From an uncultured Pelagibacteraceae bacterium (GTDB lineage: Bacteria; Pseudomonadota; Alphaproteobacteria; Pelagibacterales; Pelagibacteraceae): DNA of 64,000 nt. The translations under genes were made by a program, and so were the position numbers. Location: NCBI GenBank assembly GCA_902569105.1, contig CACFTE010000001.1, positions 1-64,000 of the forward strand. The letters run 5' to 3'. The notes beneath the pieces are model-generated. The model was not told the DNA's origin. It saw nothing but the letters and a program-made list of their open reading frames with translations, and made no database searches. Below are positions 2,729 to 11,253 of the stretch, one piece after another; position 1 is the stretch's first letter; the number at the start of each line of letters is the position of its first letter.

Positions 2729-4357
2729 ATGAATAATTACGAGACAAATCTAGGAAAAAATAATGCAAATTTTATTCCTTTAACTCCACTAAGTTTTTTA
2801 GAGAGAGCAAAAGATATTTATCCAAATTACGAAGCTCTTGTTTATGAAACCAGAAGTTATAATTGGACAGAGGTATACAAAAGATGCATCAAGTTTGCAA
2901 GTGCCCTAGAAAAAATTGGAGTTCGAAAGGGAGATACTGTTTCAGTGATGGCGTTTAATACTCCTGAAATTTTTGAAGCACATTACTCCATACCAATGAC
3001 TGGGGCAGTTTTAAATACAATTAATGTAAGACTAGATGCAAAAACAGTCTCTTATATTCTTAACCATAGTGAAGCCAAAGTATTTATTGTTGATAGACAG
3101 CTGCATTCTATTATTGAAAAAGCACTCACAACAGTTGAAAAGAAACCAATTATTATTGATATTCAAGATGATTTTGCAGATCAATCATTGTTAAAAAAAA
3201 TAGGTGAACACGAATATGAAAGTTTTTTAAAATCTGGAGATGAAAATTATGTTTGGAGAAGACCAAAAGATGAATGGGATGCAATTTCATTAAATTACAC
3301 CTCAGGTACTACTGGAAATCCTAAGGGAGTAGTTTATCATCATAGAGGATCGTATCTTATGTCTACTGGAAGTGCTGTCGCGTGGAACATGCCAAACAGA
3401 TTAAATTTCTTAACTGTAGTTCCTATGTTTCATTGTAATGGATGGGGTTACCCATGGACAATACCAATGCTAAATGGAAAAACTGTTTGTTTAAGAGCGA
3501 TAGATATTAAAAAAATATTTGAATTAATTGAGAGATATAAAATCACCCATTTTGGTGGAGCGCCTATAGTATTAAATATGATTACTGGAGCTTCTCAATC
3601 TGATCAAAAAAAATTAAATCATAAAGTTCATGTTCTTACAGCTGGAGCTCCTCCACCTAGTATAATATTTAAAAAAATGAGAGCATTAGGTTTTGAAGTT
3701 ATGCATGTTTATGGATTAACAGAAACATATGGTCATATTACTCAATGCGCATGGAACGATGAGTGGAATTCATTTGATGAAGATAAACAAAACGAAATTA
3801 AAGCGAGACAAGGTGTGAGATACCCAAACACTGAGGATGCAATGGTTATAGATCCAGAAACTATGAAGCCAGTCCCTAAGGATGGCAAATCAATGGGTGA
3901 AATCATGATTAGGGGAAATATTGTTATGAAAGGTTATTTCAAAGATAAAGAAGCTACAGAAAAAGCAATGGCAAATGGGTGGTTCCATTCTGGAGATTTA
4001 GCCGTAATGCATCCTGATGGTTACATAAAAATACAAGACAGGTCAAAAGATATAATTATTTCTGGTGGTGAAAATATTTCTTCCATTGAAATAGAAAATA
4101 CATTAGCTAAACATCCTGCAGTTTCTATTGCTGCAGTAGTTGCAAAATCTGATGAAAAATGGGGGGAAGTACCTTGTGCTTTTATTGAAAAAGTAAAAGA
4201 TAAAGAAGTATCCGAAAAAGAATTAATAGATTTTTGTAAAGAGACATTAGCTGGGTTTAAAGTTCCAAAAAAAATTGACTTTCGTGAATTACCAAAAACA
4301 TCCACAGGTAAAATCCAAAAATTTGAATTAAGAAAAATTGCTAAGGATTTAAATTAA
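2729..4357 (+). CDS. dmdB: 3-methylmercaptopropionate-CoA ligase (acyl-CoA synthetase)
   Basis: ATP-dependent acyl-CoA ligase (ANL superfamily) of 542 residues. DmdB activates methylmercaptopropionate, the product of DmdA, with CoA. Adenylation motifs are in the normal order: YTSGTTGNPKG (about 190), YGLTETYG (about 328), GWFHSGD (about 417), and the C-terminal PKTSTGKIQK with the catalytic Lys near 529. It lies between dmdC (1 nt upstream) and dmdA (directly abutting), which points to translational coupling. Medium-chain fatty acids are the main alternative substrates for this family; the context favours MMPA. Confidence 0.91.
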   Translation: MNNYETNLGKNNANFIPLTPLSFLERAKDIYPNYEALVYETRSYNWTEVYKRCIKFASALEKIGVRKGDTVSVMAFNTPEIFEAHYSIPMTGAVLNTINVRLDAKTVSYILNHSEAKVFIVDRQLHSIIEKALTTVEKKPIIIDIQDDFADQSLLKKIGEHEYESFLKSGDENYVWRRPKDEWDAISLNYTSGTTGNPKGVVYHHRGSYLMSTGSAVAWNMPNRLNFLTVVPMFHCNGWGYPWTIPMLNGKTVCLRAIDIKKIFELIERYKITHFGGAPIVLNMITGASQSDQKKLNHKVHVLTAGAPPPSIIFKKMRALGFEVMHVYGLTETYGHITQCAWNDEWNSFDEDKQNEIKARQGVRYPNTEDAMVIDPETMKPVPKDGKSMGEIMIRGNIVMKGYFKDKEATEKAMANGWFHSGDLAVMHPDGYIKIQDRSKDIIISGGENISSIEIENTLAKHPAVSIAAVVAKSDEKWGEVPCAFIEKVKDKEVSEKELIDFCKETLAGFKVPKKIDFRELPKTSTGKIQKFELRKIAKDLN

Positions 4358-5467
4358 ATGAAAACCTTTTCTATTGCAAAATCAAGAAGGTTAAGAAGCA
4401 CACCTTATACTTCAAGAATCGAAAAGCAAGGCGTTACAGCTTATACATCGTATAATCATATGCTTTTACCAGCGGCTTTTGGATCCTTAGAGGATTCTTA
4501 TCATCATTTAAAAAAAAATGTTCAGATTTGGGATGTTGCTGGTGAAAGGCAAGTAGAAATTACAGGAAGAGACTCAGCAAAATTAGTTCAAATAATGACT
4601 TGTCGAGATTTATCAAAATCTAAAGATGGAAGATGTTATTACTGTCCAATAATAGATGATGATGCTGGGATAATAAATGACCCTGTTGTTTTGAGACTTA
4701 GTAAAGATCGATGGTGGATATCAATTGCAGACTCCGATGTGATTTTATTTGCAAAGGGTTTAGCTATCGGTAATAAATTTGAAGTAAAAATATTTGAACC
4801 AAACGTAGATATTATGGCTGTACAAGGACCGAAGTCATTTCCATTAATGGAAAAAGTTTTCGGAGAAAAAATAACTAAATTAAAATTTTTTGGTTTTGAT
4901 TACTTTGACTTTAAAGGTACACAGCATTTAATTGCGCGATCAGGATGGTCTAAACAGGGTGGTTATGAAATTTATGTTGAGAACACTAAATCTGGATTGG
5001 AACTTTATGATCATTTATTTGAAATTGGTAAAGAATTTGATGTAAAACCAGGATGTCCAAATCTCATTGAAAGAATAGAAAGTGGACTGTTATCATATGG
5101 AAATGATATGGATCTTTACGATAACCCATTTGAGTGTGGATTTGATAAATATGTAAATTTGGATTCTGACGTAACTTTTTTAGGTAAAGAAAAATTGAAA
5201 AAGATAAAGTCAGAAGGAATTAATAGAAAGTTAGTGGGTCTTATTATTGATGCGAATGAAATTAGCATGACAAAGTCTTTAGAAGTTAAAGATGTAAATA
5301 ACAGCATAATTGGCGAAATGAGATCTGCGTGCTTCTCACCATATTTTAATAAAGTTATTGGAATTGCTATGATTAATAAGCCATTTTACACACCATCTCA
5401 AAATGTGAAAGTTGATATAAATGGTAATATTTACAATGGAAAAGTTTGTGATTTACCATTCATTTAG
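4358..5467 (+). CDS. dmdA: Dimethylsulfoniopropionate demethylase
   Basis: Transfers a methyl group from DMSP to tetrahydrofolate, giving methylmercaptopropionate and 5-methyl-THF; a GcvT-fold cytosolic enzyme. The 369-residue length equals that of Pelagibacter DmdA as I remember it. Long stretches are the same or nearly so, for example [20 protein letters not shown] near the N terminus, [34 protein letters not shown] and [18 protein letters not shown]. The start codon abuts the dmdB stop (TAAATG). Glycine-cleavage T proteins are the usual confusion, but these segments are DmdA-specific. No riboswitch or promoter is evident inside the dmd block. Confidence 0.97.
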
Positions 5468-5487
5468 TATAACATCACTGAATTACC

Positions 5488-6483
5488 ATGAATATTTGTA
5501 TTGTAGGAGCGACAGGAAACGTTGGTAGAAAAATTTTAGAGGTTCTAGATAAAAAAAATTTTTCTTTTGATCAACTCTATTTAGTTGCTTCTGAAAAAAG
5601 TGTTGGAAAAAAAATTCTCTTTAAAAAAAATGAATACATAGTGTCTAATTTAGAAGATTTTGATTTTTCTAAATGTGATATTACATTTTTCTCAGCAGGT
5701 GGAAAAATAGCAGAAAAATTTGCAGTAAAAGCAGCAAAACATTCAATTGTAATTGATAATTCAAGTTTTTTTAGAATGGACCCGGATGTCCCATTAATTG
5801 TTCCACAAGTAAATTCTGGCGATCTTAAAAATATGAAAAAAAATATAATTGCAAATGCAAACTGCTCAACTATTCAAATGGTAATAGCTTTAAAACCATT
5901 GCATGAGATTTTCAAGATTAAAAGAATAATTGTTTCTACTTATCAATCTGTTTCAGGAGCTGGAAAAGAGCCAATGGATGAACTAATAGAACAAACAAAA
6001 CTTGCTTTAGATAACGAAAAAATTAGTTCTAAAAATTTTACAAAACAAATTGCTTTTAATGCAATACCTCATATTGATGTATTTTCAAATGATGGTTATA
6101 CAAAAGAAGAAATGAAAATGATTTATGAGACAAAAAAAATATTGGATAAAGAAATAAATGTAACAGCAACTTGTGTAAGAGTTCCAGTGTTAGTTTCCCA
6201 CGCTGAGTCAGTAAATATAGAATTTGAAAAAGAATTTACTTTAGAAAAAGTAGTAGATTTGTTGAAAAGTGCTGAAGGCTGTACAGTTGTAAGTGAGCAA
6301 AAAGATGGAGGATATGTAACACAGCTTGAAGCAGAAGGTAAAGATGATACTTTTATCTCTAGAATTAGGAAAGATAATACAAATGAAAAAGCCTTAAATC
6401 TTTGGATAGTATCTGATAATTTGCTAAGAGGTGCGGCTCTAAACGCTGTAGAAATAGCAGAGGCTTATATTAAAACAAAGTAA
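5488..6483 (+). CDS. asd: Aspartate-semialdehyde dehydrogenase
   Basis: NADPH-dependent reduction of aspartyl phosphate to aspartate semialdehyde, the branch point to lysine/DAP, threonine and methionine. The 331 residues show the N-terminal nucleotide-binding loop GATGNVGRKI, the active-site motif NANCST with the catalytic Cys at 126, and HAESVNIEFE in the dimerisation domain. It starts 20 nt after dmdA, and its stop overlaps the sdhC start by 1 nt (TAATG). It also supplies homoserine for MetX, encoded further on. Confidence 0.95.
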   Translation: MNICIVGATGNVGRKILEVLDKKNFSFDQLYLVASEKSVGKKILFKKNEYIVSNLEDFDFSKCDITFFSAGGKIAEKFAVKAAKHSIVIDNSSFFRMDPDVPLIVPQVNSGDLKNMKKNIIANANCSTIQMVIALKPLHEIFKIKRIIVSTYQSVSGAGKEPMDELIEQTKLALDNEKISSKNFTKQIAFNAIPHIDVFSNDGYTKEEMKMIYETKKILDKEINVTATCVRVPVLVSHAESVNIEFEKEFTLEKVVDLLKSAEGCTVVSEQKDGGYVTQLEAEGKDDTFISRIRKDNTNEKALNLWIVSDNLLRGAALNAVEIAEAYIKTK

Positions 6484-6863
6484 TGAGTAACAATCCATTA
6501 TCACCTCATATACAAATATACAATTGGCATATATCATCTTTAGTTTCTATTTCCCATAGAATAACTGGAATAATTAATTTTTTAACTCTATTTTTGGTTT
6601 GTTTTTGGATATGGACATTACTATTGAGCAATGAAAGTTATGAAATTGTATTTAATTTCTTCAATTCAATTTTTGGTAAATTTTTTGTTATTGGTTTTGT
6701 ATGGTCCTACTCTTTCCAAATACTCAGCGAAATTAGACACTGGTTTTGGGACTTGGGTTATGGTTTTGAATTAAAAACTTCTAAGATAACTGGAGTTTTA
6801 GTTATTTTGGGTTCAATAATAATTACAATAGTTTTGTATTCTATAAGGGGATTATTAGTTTAA
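6483..6863 (+). CDS. sdhC: Succinate dehydrogenase cytochrome b556-type subunit SdhC
   Basis: Membrane anchor of complex II with three hydrophobic helices, 126 residues. The N-terminal LSPHIQIYNW and SISHRITGII are typical of SdhC; Ser22 and Arg26 occupy the quinone-site positions (E. coli Ser27 and Arg31). In helix 2 the family motif HxxxGIRH is replaced by QILSEIRH, so the usual axial heme-b histidine (E. coli His84) is Gln79 here. It overlaps asd and sdhD by one base each. The substitution is discussed in the findings. Confidence 0.93.
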   Translation: MSNNPLSPHIQIYNWHISSLVSISHRITGIINFLTLFLVCFWIWTLLLSNESYEIVFNFFNSIFGKFFVIGFVWSYSFQILSEIRHWFWDLGYGFELKTSKITGVLVILGSIIITIVLYSIRGLLV

Positions 6864-7186
6864 TGTTAAGTGCTACAAAAAAATGGATATTGATAAAATT
6901 GAGCTCAGTATTAATGGTCCCTTTCATGATATGGTTTTTACTTAAGTTTGTATCTATCTACGATAGTGACCAAAAAAATATACTAGAATTTTTCTCAAAT
7001 CCACTAACTACTGTGTTTTTTTCTATATTTATCTTCGTTTCTTTCTTCAATTTTGCATTAAATATTAGTGAAATATTTGAGGATTATATTAATAGTGAAA
7101 AAACAAGAAAATTTGCCAACATGATGGTTTATTTGTCATCTTTAATTATTCCTATTATTACCTTAATTACACTAAACAAAATATAA
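6863..7186 (+). CDS. sdhD: Succinate dehydrogenase membrane anchor SdhD
   Basis: Second membrane anchor of complex II, 107 residues with three hydrophobic helices. It is recognised from position between sdhC and sdhA and from a helix-2 end (NISEIFEDYI) corresponding to the family motif ending in (E/T)DYV, which includes the quinone-site Tyr. The family's heme-ligating His (HAxxG motif, E. coli His71) aligns with Asn, and the whole protein contains no histidine. The start overlaps the sdhC stop by 1 nt. Confidence 0.88.
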   Translation: MLSATKKWILIKLSSVLMVPFMIWFLLKFVSIYDSDQKNILEFFSNPLTTVFFSIFIFVSFFNFALNISEIFEDYINSEKTRKFANMMVYLSSLIIPIITLITLNKI

Positions 7187-7189
7187 AAT

Positions 7190-8965
7190 ATGAAATCCTA
7201 CAAAATAATTGATCACAATTACGATGTTGTAGTTTTAGGCGCTGGAGGCTCAGGACTTAGAGCTGCTGTTGGTCTCAGCGAGGCTGGTTTAAAAACTGCT
7301 TGTATTTCTAAAGTTTTTCCAACAAGGAGTCATACCTCTGCTGCTCAAGGTGGAATTTCTGCAGCTTTAGGAAATATGGGCGAAGATGACTGGCGTTGGC
7401 ACATGTATGATACTGTTAAAGGATCAGATTGGCTTGGAGATCAAGATTCAATAGAATACTTATGCAAAGAAGCACCTAGAGCAGTACTTGAATTAGAGCA
7501 ATATGGTGTCCCATTTAGCAGAACAGAAGACGGAAAAATTTATCAACGGCCTTTTGGGGGAATGACGAAAAATTATGGAAACGGAACTGTGCAACGAACT
7601 TGTGCAGCAGCAGATAGAACTGGTCATGCAATTCTTCATACACTTTATGGTCAAGCATTAAAACATAACACTGAATTTTTTATTGAGTATTTTGCTTTAG
7701 ATCTTTTGATGAAAGATGGTCAGTGCAAAGGTTTAATTGCTTGGAATCTAAATGATGGAACTTTACACCGCTTTAGATCTCATATTACTATTATTGCTAC
7801 TGGTGGATATGGAAAAGTTTATTATTCCGCAACATCTGCACATACTTGTACTGGAGATGGAAATGCTATGGTTTTAAGAGCAGGTCTTCCACTACAAGAT
7901 ATGGAATTTGTACAATTTCATCCAACAGGAATTTATGGCCATGGAACACTGATTTCAGAGGGAGTGAGAGGCGAAGGTGGGTATCTTTTAAATTCAAAGG
8001 GTGAGAGATTTATGGAGAAATATGCTCCTAAGGCGAAAGACTTAGCTTCAAGAGATGTTGTAAGTAGATCAATTGCCATTGAAATTAATGAAGGTAGAGG
8101 AGTTGGTAAAGAAAAAGACCATGTTCATTTACACTTAAATCATTTAGATCCTAAAGTAATTGATGAAAGGTTACCTGGCATTGCTGAGTCATCAAGGTTG
8201 TTTGCAAACGTTGACGTAACTAAAGAACCAATTCCTGTTGTTCCAACCGTACACTACAATATGGGTGGAATACCAACAAATTATAAAGCTGAAGTTTTGA
8301 CAGTAAATGGTTCACAGAAAACAGTTCCAGGATTAATGGCAATTGGTGAGGCTGCGTGCGTTTCTGTCCATGGTGCAAATAGATTAGGATCAAATTCATT
8401 AATAGATTTGGTTGTCTTTGGTAGAGCTGCTGCAAAAAGAGCCTCAGAGTTAGTTAAATCAGGAATGCCCCATGAAGATATTTCAAATTCTGAAACTGAA
8501 AAATGTTTGGAAAGATTTGATAATTTAAGAAATGGAAATGGAGATAACAGAACAGCAGATTTAAGGATCTCAATGCAAAAAACTATGCAATCAAAATGTG
8601 CAGTTTTTAGAACAGAAAAAACCTTAAAAGAGGGAGTTGATGAAATCAGAAAACCTTTTGAGGGTATCGATAATATAAACGTTAAAGATAAGTCACTTAT
8701 TTTTAACACTGATTTAGTAGAAACCTTAGAATTTGATAATCTAATACGACAGGCAATTACCACAATGGATTCTGCATATAACAGAAAAGAAAGCAGAGGT
8801 GCTCATGCTAGAGAAGACTTTCCAAACAGAGATGATCAACAATATATGAAACATACATTATCGTGGTGCGAGGGAAGCAAATCAAAAATTGCTTATAGAG
8901 ATGTTCATAAATCAACCTTAACAAATGAAGTGCAGTACTTTCCACCACAAGAAAGAATTTATTAA
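7190..8965 (+). CDS. sdhA: Succinate dehydrogenase flavoprotein subunit
   Basis: Oxidises succinate to fumarate with covalently bound FAD, on the cytosolic face of complex II. The 591 residues show the dinucleotide-binding [16 protein letters not shown] near the N terminus, [17 protein letters not shown] with the flavinylated His at about 48, the substrate-site [11 protein letters not shown], and the C-terminal FAD contact [16 protein letters not shown]. It lies 3 nt after sdhD and overlaps sdhB by 1 nt. Nothing about the catalytic subunit looks unusual. Confidence 0.98.
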
Positions 8966-9738
8966 TGGTTCAAATAAACCTTCCAAAAAACTCAAAAATT
9001 CAACAAGGACATTATTATAAAGATAAAACTGGATCACAGAATATTAGAAAAGTAAATATTTATAGATGGGATCCTGCAACAGGAGAAAATCCTAGAATAG
9101 ACACCTATGAAGTTGATATGGATAACTGTCCATCAAAAGTTCTTGATTTACTAAATAAAATTAAGAATGAAATTGATCCTTCAATTGCTTATAGAAGGTC
9201 ATGTGCACATGGAGTTTGTGGATCATGTGCGATGAATATGGATGGAAAAAATGGTCTAGCTTGTACAAAACCCCATGCAGAAATTAAAGGAGATATAAAT
9301 ATTTATCCTTTACCTCATTTGAAAGTTTTAAAAGACCTTATTGGAGATTTAAGTACACTTTATAAACAATATGAGTCAGTTCAGCCTTGGTTAAAAACTA
9401 CAAAAATAATAGATGATACCGAACATCACCAAACTAAAGAGGATAGATCGAAGTTAGACGGTTTATATGAATGTATAATGTGTGCGTGTTGTTCAACATC
9501 ATGTCCTAGCTATTGGTGGAATGGAGATAAATATTTAGGACCTGCGGTTCTATTACAAGCATATAGATGGATTGTTGATAGTAGGGATGAGGATAGAAAA
9601 GAAAGACTCAAAAAAGTTGCAGATGAATTGAAGCTATACAGATGTCATACAATTATGAACTGTACAAACGCATGTCCTAAAGGTTTAAATCCAGCAAAAG
9701 CTATCGCTTCAATTAAAAAAATGCTTGCAACTAGCTGA
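8965..9738 (+). CDS. sdhB: Succinate dehydrogenase iron-sulfur subunit
   Basis: Carries electrons from SdhA-FAD to the quinone site through three Fe-S clusters; 257 residues. The [2Fe-2S] ligands are in [18 protein letters not shown] and the following ACTKP; the [4Fe-4S] and [3Fe-4S] ligands are in [13 protein letters not shown] and in [17 protein letters not shown]. Cluster ligands appear complete, so the electron path to quinone should be intact even though the anchors lack heme ligands. Confidence 0.98.
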
Positions 9739-9759: not shown

Positions 9760-11253
9760 ATGAATTTAATACAACATTACATTAATGGTAAAGTTGTTTC
9801 GGGAGACTCCAAAAGAAAAGGTAAAGTTTTTAATCCTGCAACAGGAAGCCAAGAGTCAGAGGTTATATTAGGATCAAAATCTGATTTAGACAAAGCTGTT
9901 GAACATGCAAAAAAAGCCTTCTTGTCTTGGTCATCAAAGCCACCAATTCAAAGAGCAAGAATAATTTTTAAATATAAAGAATTAATTGAAAAAAACTCAG
10001 ATGAATTAACTAAACTTATAGTTTCAGAACATGGCAAAGTATATGATGATGCAAAAGGTTCACTCACAAGAGGTTTAGAAGTAGTAGAATTTGCTTGTGG
10101 AATTCCACAAATGCTAAAAGGTGAATTTACAGAGAATGTTGGAACTGAGATTGATAGTTGGTCGATTAGACAGCCTTTAGGAGTTTGTGCTGGAATTACT
10201 CCTTTTAATTTTCCAGCCATGGTTCCAATGTGGATGTTCCCGATGGCTATAGCATGTGGAAATACCTTTATACTAAAACCCTCTGAAAAAGATCCATCTT
10301 GTTCAATTAGATTAGCCGAATTATTTACGGAAGCTGGATTACCAGAAGGAGTTTTAAATGTAGTAAATGGAGATAAAGAAGTTGTAGACTCAATATTAAC
10401 TAATAAAGATATTCAAGCTGTTAGTTTTGTTGGATCAACTCCTATCGCAAAATATATTTATGAGACAGCAGCAAAAAATGAAAAAAGAGTTCAAGCATTA
10501 GGAGGAGCTAAAAATCACTGTGTTGTAATGCCGGACTGTGATCTAGACCAAGCCGTAAATGGATTAATGGGTGCTGCCTATGGTTCTGCTGGTGAGAGAT
10601 GTATGGCTCAATCCGTTGCTGTAGCTGTAGGTAATGTTGGGGATAAACTTGTTAATGAATTATCAAAAAAAGTCGAAGCATTAAAAATTGGACCAGGCAT
10701 GGATAAAAACTCAGAGATGGGTCCGTTAGTAACCAAAGAACATTTGGAAAAAGTAAAAGGTTATGTTGATCTTGGAGTAAAAGAAGGGGCTAATTTAGTT
10801 GTAGATGGTAGAAATATTAAACTTCAAGGTTATGAAAATGGTTTTTATATAGGTGGATGTTTGTTTGATAACGTAAAAAAAAATATGAGAATTTATAAAG
10901 AGGAAATTTTTGGACCAGTTTTATCTGTAGTCAGAGCTAAGGATTTTGATGAGGCCACACAACTGATAAATGACCATGAATTTGGAAATGGTACAAGTAT
11001 TTATACTAGAGATGGAGATGTAGGTAGAACTTTTGCAAGCAAAATTAAAGTTGGCATGGTTGGAATAAATATTCCTATCCCTGTGCCAGTTGCCTTTCAT
11101 AGCTTTGGTGGTTGGAAAAGATCATTATTTGGAGACCAGCATATGCATGGTCCTGAAGGAGTAAGATTTTATACAAAATTAAAAACAATAACTTCAAGAT
11201 GGCCCTCTGGCGTTAGATCTAACCCAGAATTTGTAATGCCTACAATGAAGTAA
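9760..11253 (+). CDS. mmsA: Methylmalonate-semialdehyde dehydrogenase (CoA-acylating)
   Basis: Converts methylmalonate semialdehyde to propionyl-CoA, or malonate semialdehyde to acetyl-CoA; used in valine, beta-alanine and 3-hydroxypropionate/acrylate catabolism. The 497 residues carry the MmsA-type SIRQPLGVCAGITPFNFPAM, the catalytic Cys281 in GSAGERCMAQ, and the C-terminal HSFGGWKRSLFGD. It lies between sdhB and mdh. Its position near dmdCBA fits a role in draining three-carbon products from DMSP or acrylate, but that is inference. Confidence 0.94.
   Translation: MNLIQHYINGKVVSGDSKRKGKVFNPATGSQESEVILGSKSDLDKAVEHAKKAFLSWSSKPPIQRARIIFKYKELIEKNSDELTKLIVSEHGKVYDDAKGSLTRGLEVVEFACGIPQMLKGEFTENVGTEIDSWSIRQPLGVCAGITPFNFPAMVPMWMFPMAIACGNTFILKPSEKDPSCSIRLAELFTEAGLPEGVLNVVNGDKEVVDSILTNKDIQAVSFVGSTPIAKYIYETAAKNEKRVQALGGAKNHCVVMPDCDLDQAVNGLMGAAYGSAGERCMAQSVAVAVGNVGDKLVNELSKKVEALKIGPGMDKNSEMGPLVTKEHLEKVKGYVDLGVKEGANLVVDGRNIKLQGYENGFYIGGCLFDNVKKNMRIYKEEIFGPVLSVVRAKDFDEATQLINDHEFGNGTSIYTRDGDVGRTFASKIKVGMVGINIPIPVPVAFHSFGGWKRSLFGDQHMHGPEGVRFYTKLKTITSRWPSGVRSNPEFVMPTMK

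Follow-up and report, generated by a model that had tools for sequence, protein, structure and literature searches.

Loss of axial heme ligands and pocket glycines points to a heme-free succinate dehydrogenase in Pelagibacter and its sister genera

Results

The window, a stretch of 64,000 nucleotides of contig CACFTE010000001.1 (assembly GCA_902569105.1) from an uncultured Pelagibacteraceae bacterium, holds an intact sdhCDAB operon at positions 6483-9738, flanked by asd (5488-6483) and a gene for methylmalonate-semialdehyde dehydrogenase (9760-11253). All four genes lie on the forward strand. The genes for the two membrane anchors occupy exactly the positions assigned to them in the preliminary description of this DNA: sdhC at 6483-6863 (126 amino acids; TIGR02970, 118.3 bits against a cut-off of 52.3; Pfam Sdh_cyt), with cytochrome b556 subunit as its annotated family name, and sdhD at 6863-7186 (107 amino acids; TIGR02968, 55.8 bits against 41.8). 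They are followed by sdhA for the flavoprotein subunit (7190-8965; 591 amino acids; TIGR01816, 950.9 bits against 727.35) and sdhB for the iron-sulfur subunit (8965-9738; 257 amino acids; NF004616, 354.2 bits against 228), the product of which carries the quinone-site Trp-Trp and His motifs when aligned to vertebrate SDHB. The start codons of sdhC and sdhD each overlap the stop codon of the preceding gene; such TAATG overlaps (asd/sdhC at 6480-6485, sdhC/sdhD at 6861-6865) are expected in a streamlined genome. Just upstream of asd and the operon, at 2729-5467, lies a DMSP demethylase gene (NF009133, 566.7 bits against 410) with an acyl-CoA synthetase gene ahead of it.

The composition of the operon is that of a type C enzyme, with SdhA and SdhB of the succinate dehydrogenase families and two three-helix anchors, of which the SdhD model matches E. 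coli SdhD. A type D fumarate reductase was rejected, as the flavoprotein stays below the respective cut-offs (TIGR01176, 535.4 against 932.7 bits; NF006686, 545.2 against 854) and passes that of the sdhA_forward model. The source genome (G000; 1.04 Mb) is 84% complete, and a profile search of this incomplete sequence did not find a second SdhC/SdhD pair. In nearly all other genomes searched sdhCD is likewise single-copy, with one match each, and a second, heme-bearing sdhCD was rejected on these grounds. Two TIGR02970 matches apiece, not one, were seen in G256, G313, G325, G198 and G283.

Heme b of type C enzymes has one axial ligand in each anchor, SdhC His84 and SdhD His71 in E. coli. In the window these positions hold SdhC Gln79 (CAA, 6717-6719) and SdhD Asn63 (AAT, 7049-7051), so that both axial histidines are replaced. 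The preliminary description had placed the two substitutions by eye, and four approaches confirm this placement. Gln79 aligns without gaps with the axial histidine of vertebrate SDHC, and in relatives the same SdhC column swaps between His, Gln and Tyr in a continuous series while the flanking motif stays. For SdhD, the family profile aligns to chain D of 1NEK with no gap over 101 residues (E 1.7e-6), and the AlphaFold model (pLDDT 91.7) superposes with residues 3-107 on E. coli SdhD 11-115 (105 aligned residues, Z 12.9, rmsd 1.9 Å). The constant offset of 8 in this superposition puts Asn63 at His71, Lys12 at Arg20 and Asn67 at Gly75. For SdhC, AlphaFold run on the sequence alone gave a poor model (pLDDT 75.5, pTM 0.38), for which unrelated helical proteins outranked E. 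coli SdhC (Z 4.3) in structure comparison; it was left out of the analysis. As had been noticed before, the translated SdhD has no histidine at all among its 107 residues; SdhC has four (positions 9, 16, 25 and 86).

To follow these positions beyond the window, whole genomes were searched (60 from relatives, 298 from the order and 144 from the class); the retrievable loci and 80 more from the named genome collection provided the SdhC and SdhD sequences. Positions in relatives are given below in E. coli numbering. Genus g1 of our coding, which we take to be Pelagibacter, has Gln at SdhC84 in all 62 members with a readable site, and its 61 members read at SdhD71 carry Phe (52), Tyr (8) or Asn (1). 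The axial histidines are thus lost genus-wide and not in one odd genome, and a sequencing error was rejected because the relatives share the loss. Asn63 of the window is itself unusual, since most relatives have Phe or Tyr there. Basal SAR11 genera keep both histidines, g5, g6, g7 and g10 are all bis-His, and the two sister genera of Pelagibacter are intermediate: g8 combines His at SdhC84 with Phe at SdhD71, and g9 has Gln or His at the former and Phe at the latter. Throughout the clade of Pelagibacter, g8 and g9, SdhD lacks any histidine in 99 of 134 members. Among other Alphaproteobacteria the SdhC histidine is kept in 66 of 70. Two Pelagibacter-type loci (L235 and L239) have His at SdhD71 together with SdhC Gln84 and Glu88, either by reversion or by retention. 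No additional members of the orders of G395 and G376 turned up in searches around these two genomes.

One glycine stands four residues after each axial histidine, SdhC Gly88 and SdhD Gly75. In the window the former is Glu83 (GAA, 6729-6731) and the latter Asn67 (7061-7063). All 134 clade members have Glu at SdhC88, including those of g8 with their retained SdhC histidine, and all bis-His sequences have Gly. We compared the two glycines in 302 SdhC/SdhD pairs, a sample in which close relatives and some duplicate genomes are counted. A pocket glycine is replaced in 164 of 164 pairs that lack an axial histidine versus 2 of 138 bis-His pairs; the remaining 136 have both glycines, and the two exceptions carry Ser at the SdhD position. 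Glu at either glycine never co-occurs with two axial histidines (0 of 138). On a tree of 160 SdhA sequences the loss state must have changed at least 11 times and the glycine state 10 times; the well-supported branches provide only five independent pairs, with four to five in agreement and none in disagreement (sign test, p 0.06-0.13).

Other residues around the former heme have changed as well. The propionate-binding SdhD Arg20 is Lys12 in the window (AAA, 6896-6898), and 131 of the 134 clade members share this Lys, whereas all 13 bis-His Pelagibacteraceae have Arg. In these 13 SdhD position 23 is always Ala, in the sequences that lost the histidines mostly Ser or Gly; position 19 shifts from Gln to mostly Leu or Ile, and both changed at the same time as the other pocket residues.

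The quinone site is preserved. SdhC Ser22, His25 and Arg26 (6546-6560; E. coli Ser27, His30 and Arg31) comprise quinone-site and former heme-side residues; Ser22 and Arg26 are invariant in the sample, and three of the 134 clade members have Thr instead of His25. SdhD Asp74-Tyr75 (7082-7087; E. coli Asp82-Tyr83) is invariant as well, and with the Trp-Trp and His motifs of SdhB the set of type C quinone-site residues is complete, in line with what had been stated for the anchors. SdhC His86 (6738-6740) is kept in 134 of 134 clade members; its E. coli counterpart, His91, contacts a propionate and SdhB and is no iron ligand (PMC3290573). Both anchor genes are under purifying selection, with a median dN/dS in the clade of 0.09 for sdhC and 0.13 for sdhD, and pseudogene decay was rejected on account of these low values.

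Discussion

The complex II of this SAR11 clade is very probably devoid of heme by nature, yet still able to reduce ubiquinone. This was also the reading of the preliminary description, and, judged from sequence, it is well supported by the graded loss of the ligands, the joint loss of the pocket glycines and a Glu that mirrors the one of yeast, and further by the kept quinone-site residues, the purifying selection and the single sdhCD. The enzyme would be the ordinary succinate:ubiquinone oxidoreductase of the TCA cycle of the Pelagibacteraceae cell, from which heme b has been lost. Electrons from succinate would pass FAD and three iron-sulfur clusters and then reach ubiquinone directly, at the preserved quinone site. 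Larger side chains would close the former space of the porphyrin between SdhC and SdhD, and SdhC Glu83 and SdhD Lys12 would form a salt bridge in place of the heme-propionate link between the anchors. Such a route is compatible with E. coli Sdh, where the heme lies off the direct electron path to the quinone and where, as cited in PMC3290573, a heme-free variant sustains growth on succinate (PMC3290573).

The closest precedent is the complex II of Saccharomyces cerevisiae, the cryo-EM structure of which contains no heme (PMC13066397; PDB 9QDL/9QDM). There, Tyr108 stands in for the SdhD-side histidine and Glu112 for a glycine, with a bond from Glu112 to Arg97 of Sdh3 substituting the heme-propionate bond (PMC13066397). 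Glu112 lies four residues past the axial site and thus corresponds to SdhD Gly75. The two propionates of the E. coli heme are bound by SdhC Arg31 and SdhD Arg20, which are equivalent under the pseudo-two-fold axis (PMC3290573), so that Glu at SdhC88 should face SdhD position 20. From the alignment and this pseudo-symmetry we propose that SdhC Glu83 and SdhD Lys12 form a bridge that mirrors the one of yeast. Both enzymes share the type C architecture, the quinone site, a replaced SdhD-type axial histidine and a Glu for a pocket glycine, a residue that in SAR11 may likewise stand in for the propionate. However, yeast has this Glu on the SdhD side and keeps the SdhC-side histidine, whereas SAR11 has it on the SdhC side and Pelagibacter has lost both histidines; the N-terminal extensions of the fungal subunits are absent in SAR11, and heme absence is proven for yeast and predicted for SAR11. 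We consider it likely that heme was lost stepwise across the clade, in convergence with yeast on a Glu for a pocket glycine in the opposite subunit, and that the glycines mark several such losses within the Alphaproteobacteria.

A likely order of events can be read from the SdhA tree, in which many inner branches are weakly supported. The bis-His lineages are basal, g10 keeps both histidines, and the Glu88 clade (g1, g8 and g9) follows. Starting from a bis-His ancestor, SdhC Gly88 would have changed to Glu alongside the loss of the SdhD histidine at the base of the clade of Pelagibacter and its two sister genera, and the idle SdhC histidine would later have been replaced by Gln at least twice. 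One origin of Gln84 lies at the base of g1 and a separate one inside g9, in which L103 and L105 retain His. The presence of Glu88 in g8, yet with the SdhC histidine in place, suggests that the pocket was closed before the second histidine was lost. SdhD71 varies between Phe, Tyr, Asn and His, and one or two base changes separate the codons in use (TTT/TTC, TAT/TAC, AAT and CAC).

Why the heme was lost is a separate question. An adaptation to iron scarcity, rather than relaxed constraint combined with genome streamlining, seems unlikely to us as the cause: the clade is marine and the basal genera keep both ligands, but the iron saved would amount to about 1 of the 10 iron atoms of the complex, complete Pelagibacter genomes retain ferrochelatase and the cytochrome b of bc1, habitat and phylogeny are confounded, and further alphaproteobacterial lineages show similar losses. 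The iron-saving motive, suggested in the preliminary description, is neither supported nor refuted. Relaxed constraint on a dispensable cofactor fits the data equally well, and its loss under streamlining explains them without any iron saving. Lost heme synthesis was rejected as a cause, given the ferrochelatase and bc1 cytochrome b of three complete genus-mates; in the genome of the window, an 84%-complete draft, ferrochelatase was not found.

It is improbable that heme b is still bound in the clade through SdhC His86 or His25, or in a five-coordinate or weakly held form. Both histidines persist, His86 without exception in the clade, and E. coli Sdh can keep its heme when one axial ligand is mutated; the loss of one histidine is therefore no proof, and the intermediate genera are less certain than Pelagibacter. 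Nevertheless, the E. coli counterparts of the two residues, His91 and His30, touch a propionate and the pyrrole face and make no contact with the iron (PMC3290573). His25 is dispensed with in the three clade members that have Thr, most SdhD sequences of the clade offer no histidine on the other side, and the Glu buried at the pocket glycine is found in every member. The retention of His86 can be explained without heme, as its E. coli counterpart takes part in a hydrogen-bond network with SdhB His207. That the anchors have decayed or changed their job and no longer serve quinone reduction is most improbable, for although they diverge fast and a lone SdhD query reaches E. coli SdhD only at E 1.2, the quinone-site residues of three subunits are kept, the operon is intact with all families above their cut-offs, dN/dS is low and the modeled SdhD fold is canonical.

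By descent and by its quinone site the SAR11 enzyme belongs with type C, as has been argued for yeast (PMC13066397). It shares families, fold, operon order and quinone-site residues with E. coli SdhCDAB (1NEK), but wild-type E. coli holds heme b between its two axial histidines, ligands that Pelagibacter lacks. The engineered heme-free E. coli variant, as cited in PMC3290573, shows that the heme is dispensable; that variant is artificial and less stable, whereas the pocket changes in SAR11 look compensatory. E. coli FrdABCD also has a heme-free two-subunit anchor (PMC3290573), yet it is a menaquinol:fumarate reductase with other anchor and flavoprotein families. The complex II of Tetrahymena and Perkinsus has membrane anchors without heme b (PMC13066397), as we infer for SAR11, but these protist enzymes are divergent; that of Tetrahymena has a reduced SDHC and SDHD ringed by extra subunits, and a heme C in SDHTT1 (PMC10060162). 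In the searchable open-licence literature we found a recent eukaryotic precedent for a heme-free complex II, and neither a bacterial one nor an earlier report on the succinate dehydrogenase of SAR11 or Pelagibacter and its heme.

The role of the heme in complex II has long been argued. SAR11 provides a natural series of related and partly cultured bacteria, with two axial histidines, with one histidine and an altered pocket, or with none, and strains on either side can be compared, making the question directly testable. SAR11 cells are among the most abundant in the ocean, and if our reading is true a whole clade of them respires via a heme-free complex II. The name cytochrome b556 would in that case be wrong for the enzyme of a dominant ocean lineage, and a heme-free subdivision of bacterial type C would be needed, as has been proposed for yeast. 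The pocket-glycine rule would then also serve to recognize heme-free complex II from sequence.

Further variation was seen outside the clade. Six genomes of four other alphaproteobacterial lineages (L150, L151, L152, L164, L267 and L269) carry Glu at the SdhD glycine and Tyr at SdhC84, i.e., the yeast arrangement, and likely represent independent heme-free enzymes. Two incomplete genomes of family f125 (L303 and L304) have Gln at the SdhC axial site, Ala at one pocket glycine and a kept SdhD histidine, possibly another loss. In the other family of the order (f2), genera g2 and g4 (L015, L036, L038-L045, L047-L050 and relatives) combine Tyr at the SdhC axial site and Cys or Ser at the pocket glycine with a kept SdhD His and Gly; their sister genus g3 is bis-His. 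Finally, some streamlined Alphaproteobacteria (L147, L151, L152, L156 and L157), among them ones with both axial histidines, have Tyr or Lys in place of the histidine of the IRH motif (E. coli SdhC His91, the propionate and SdhB contact).
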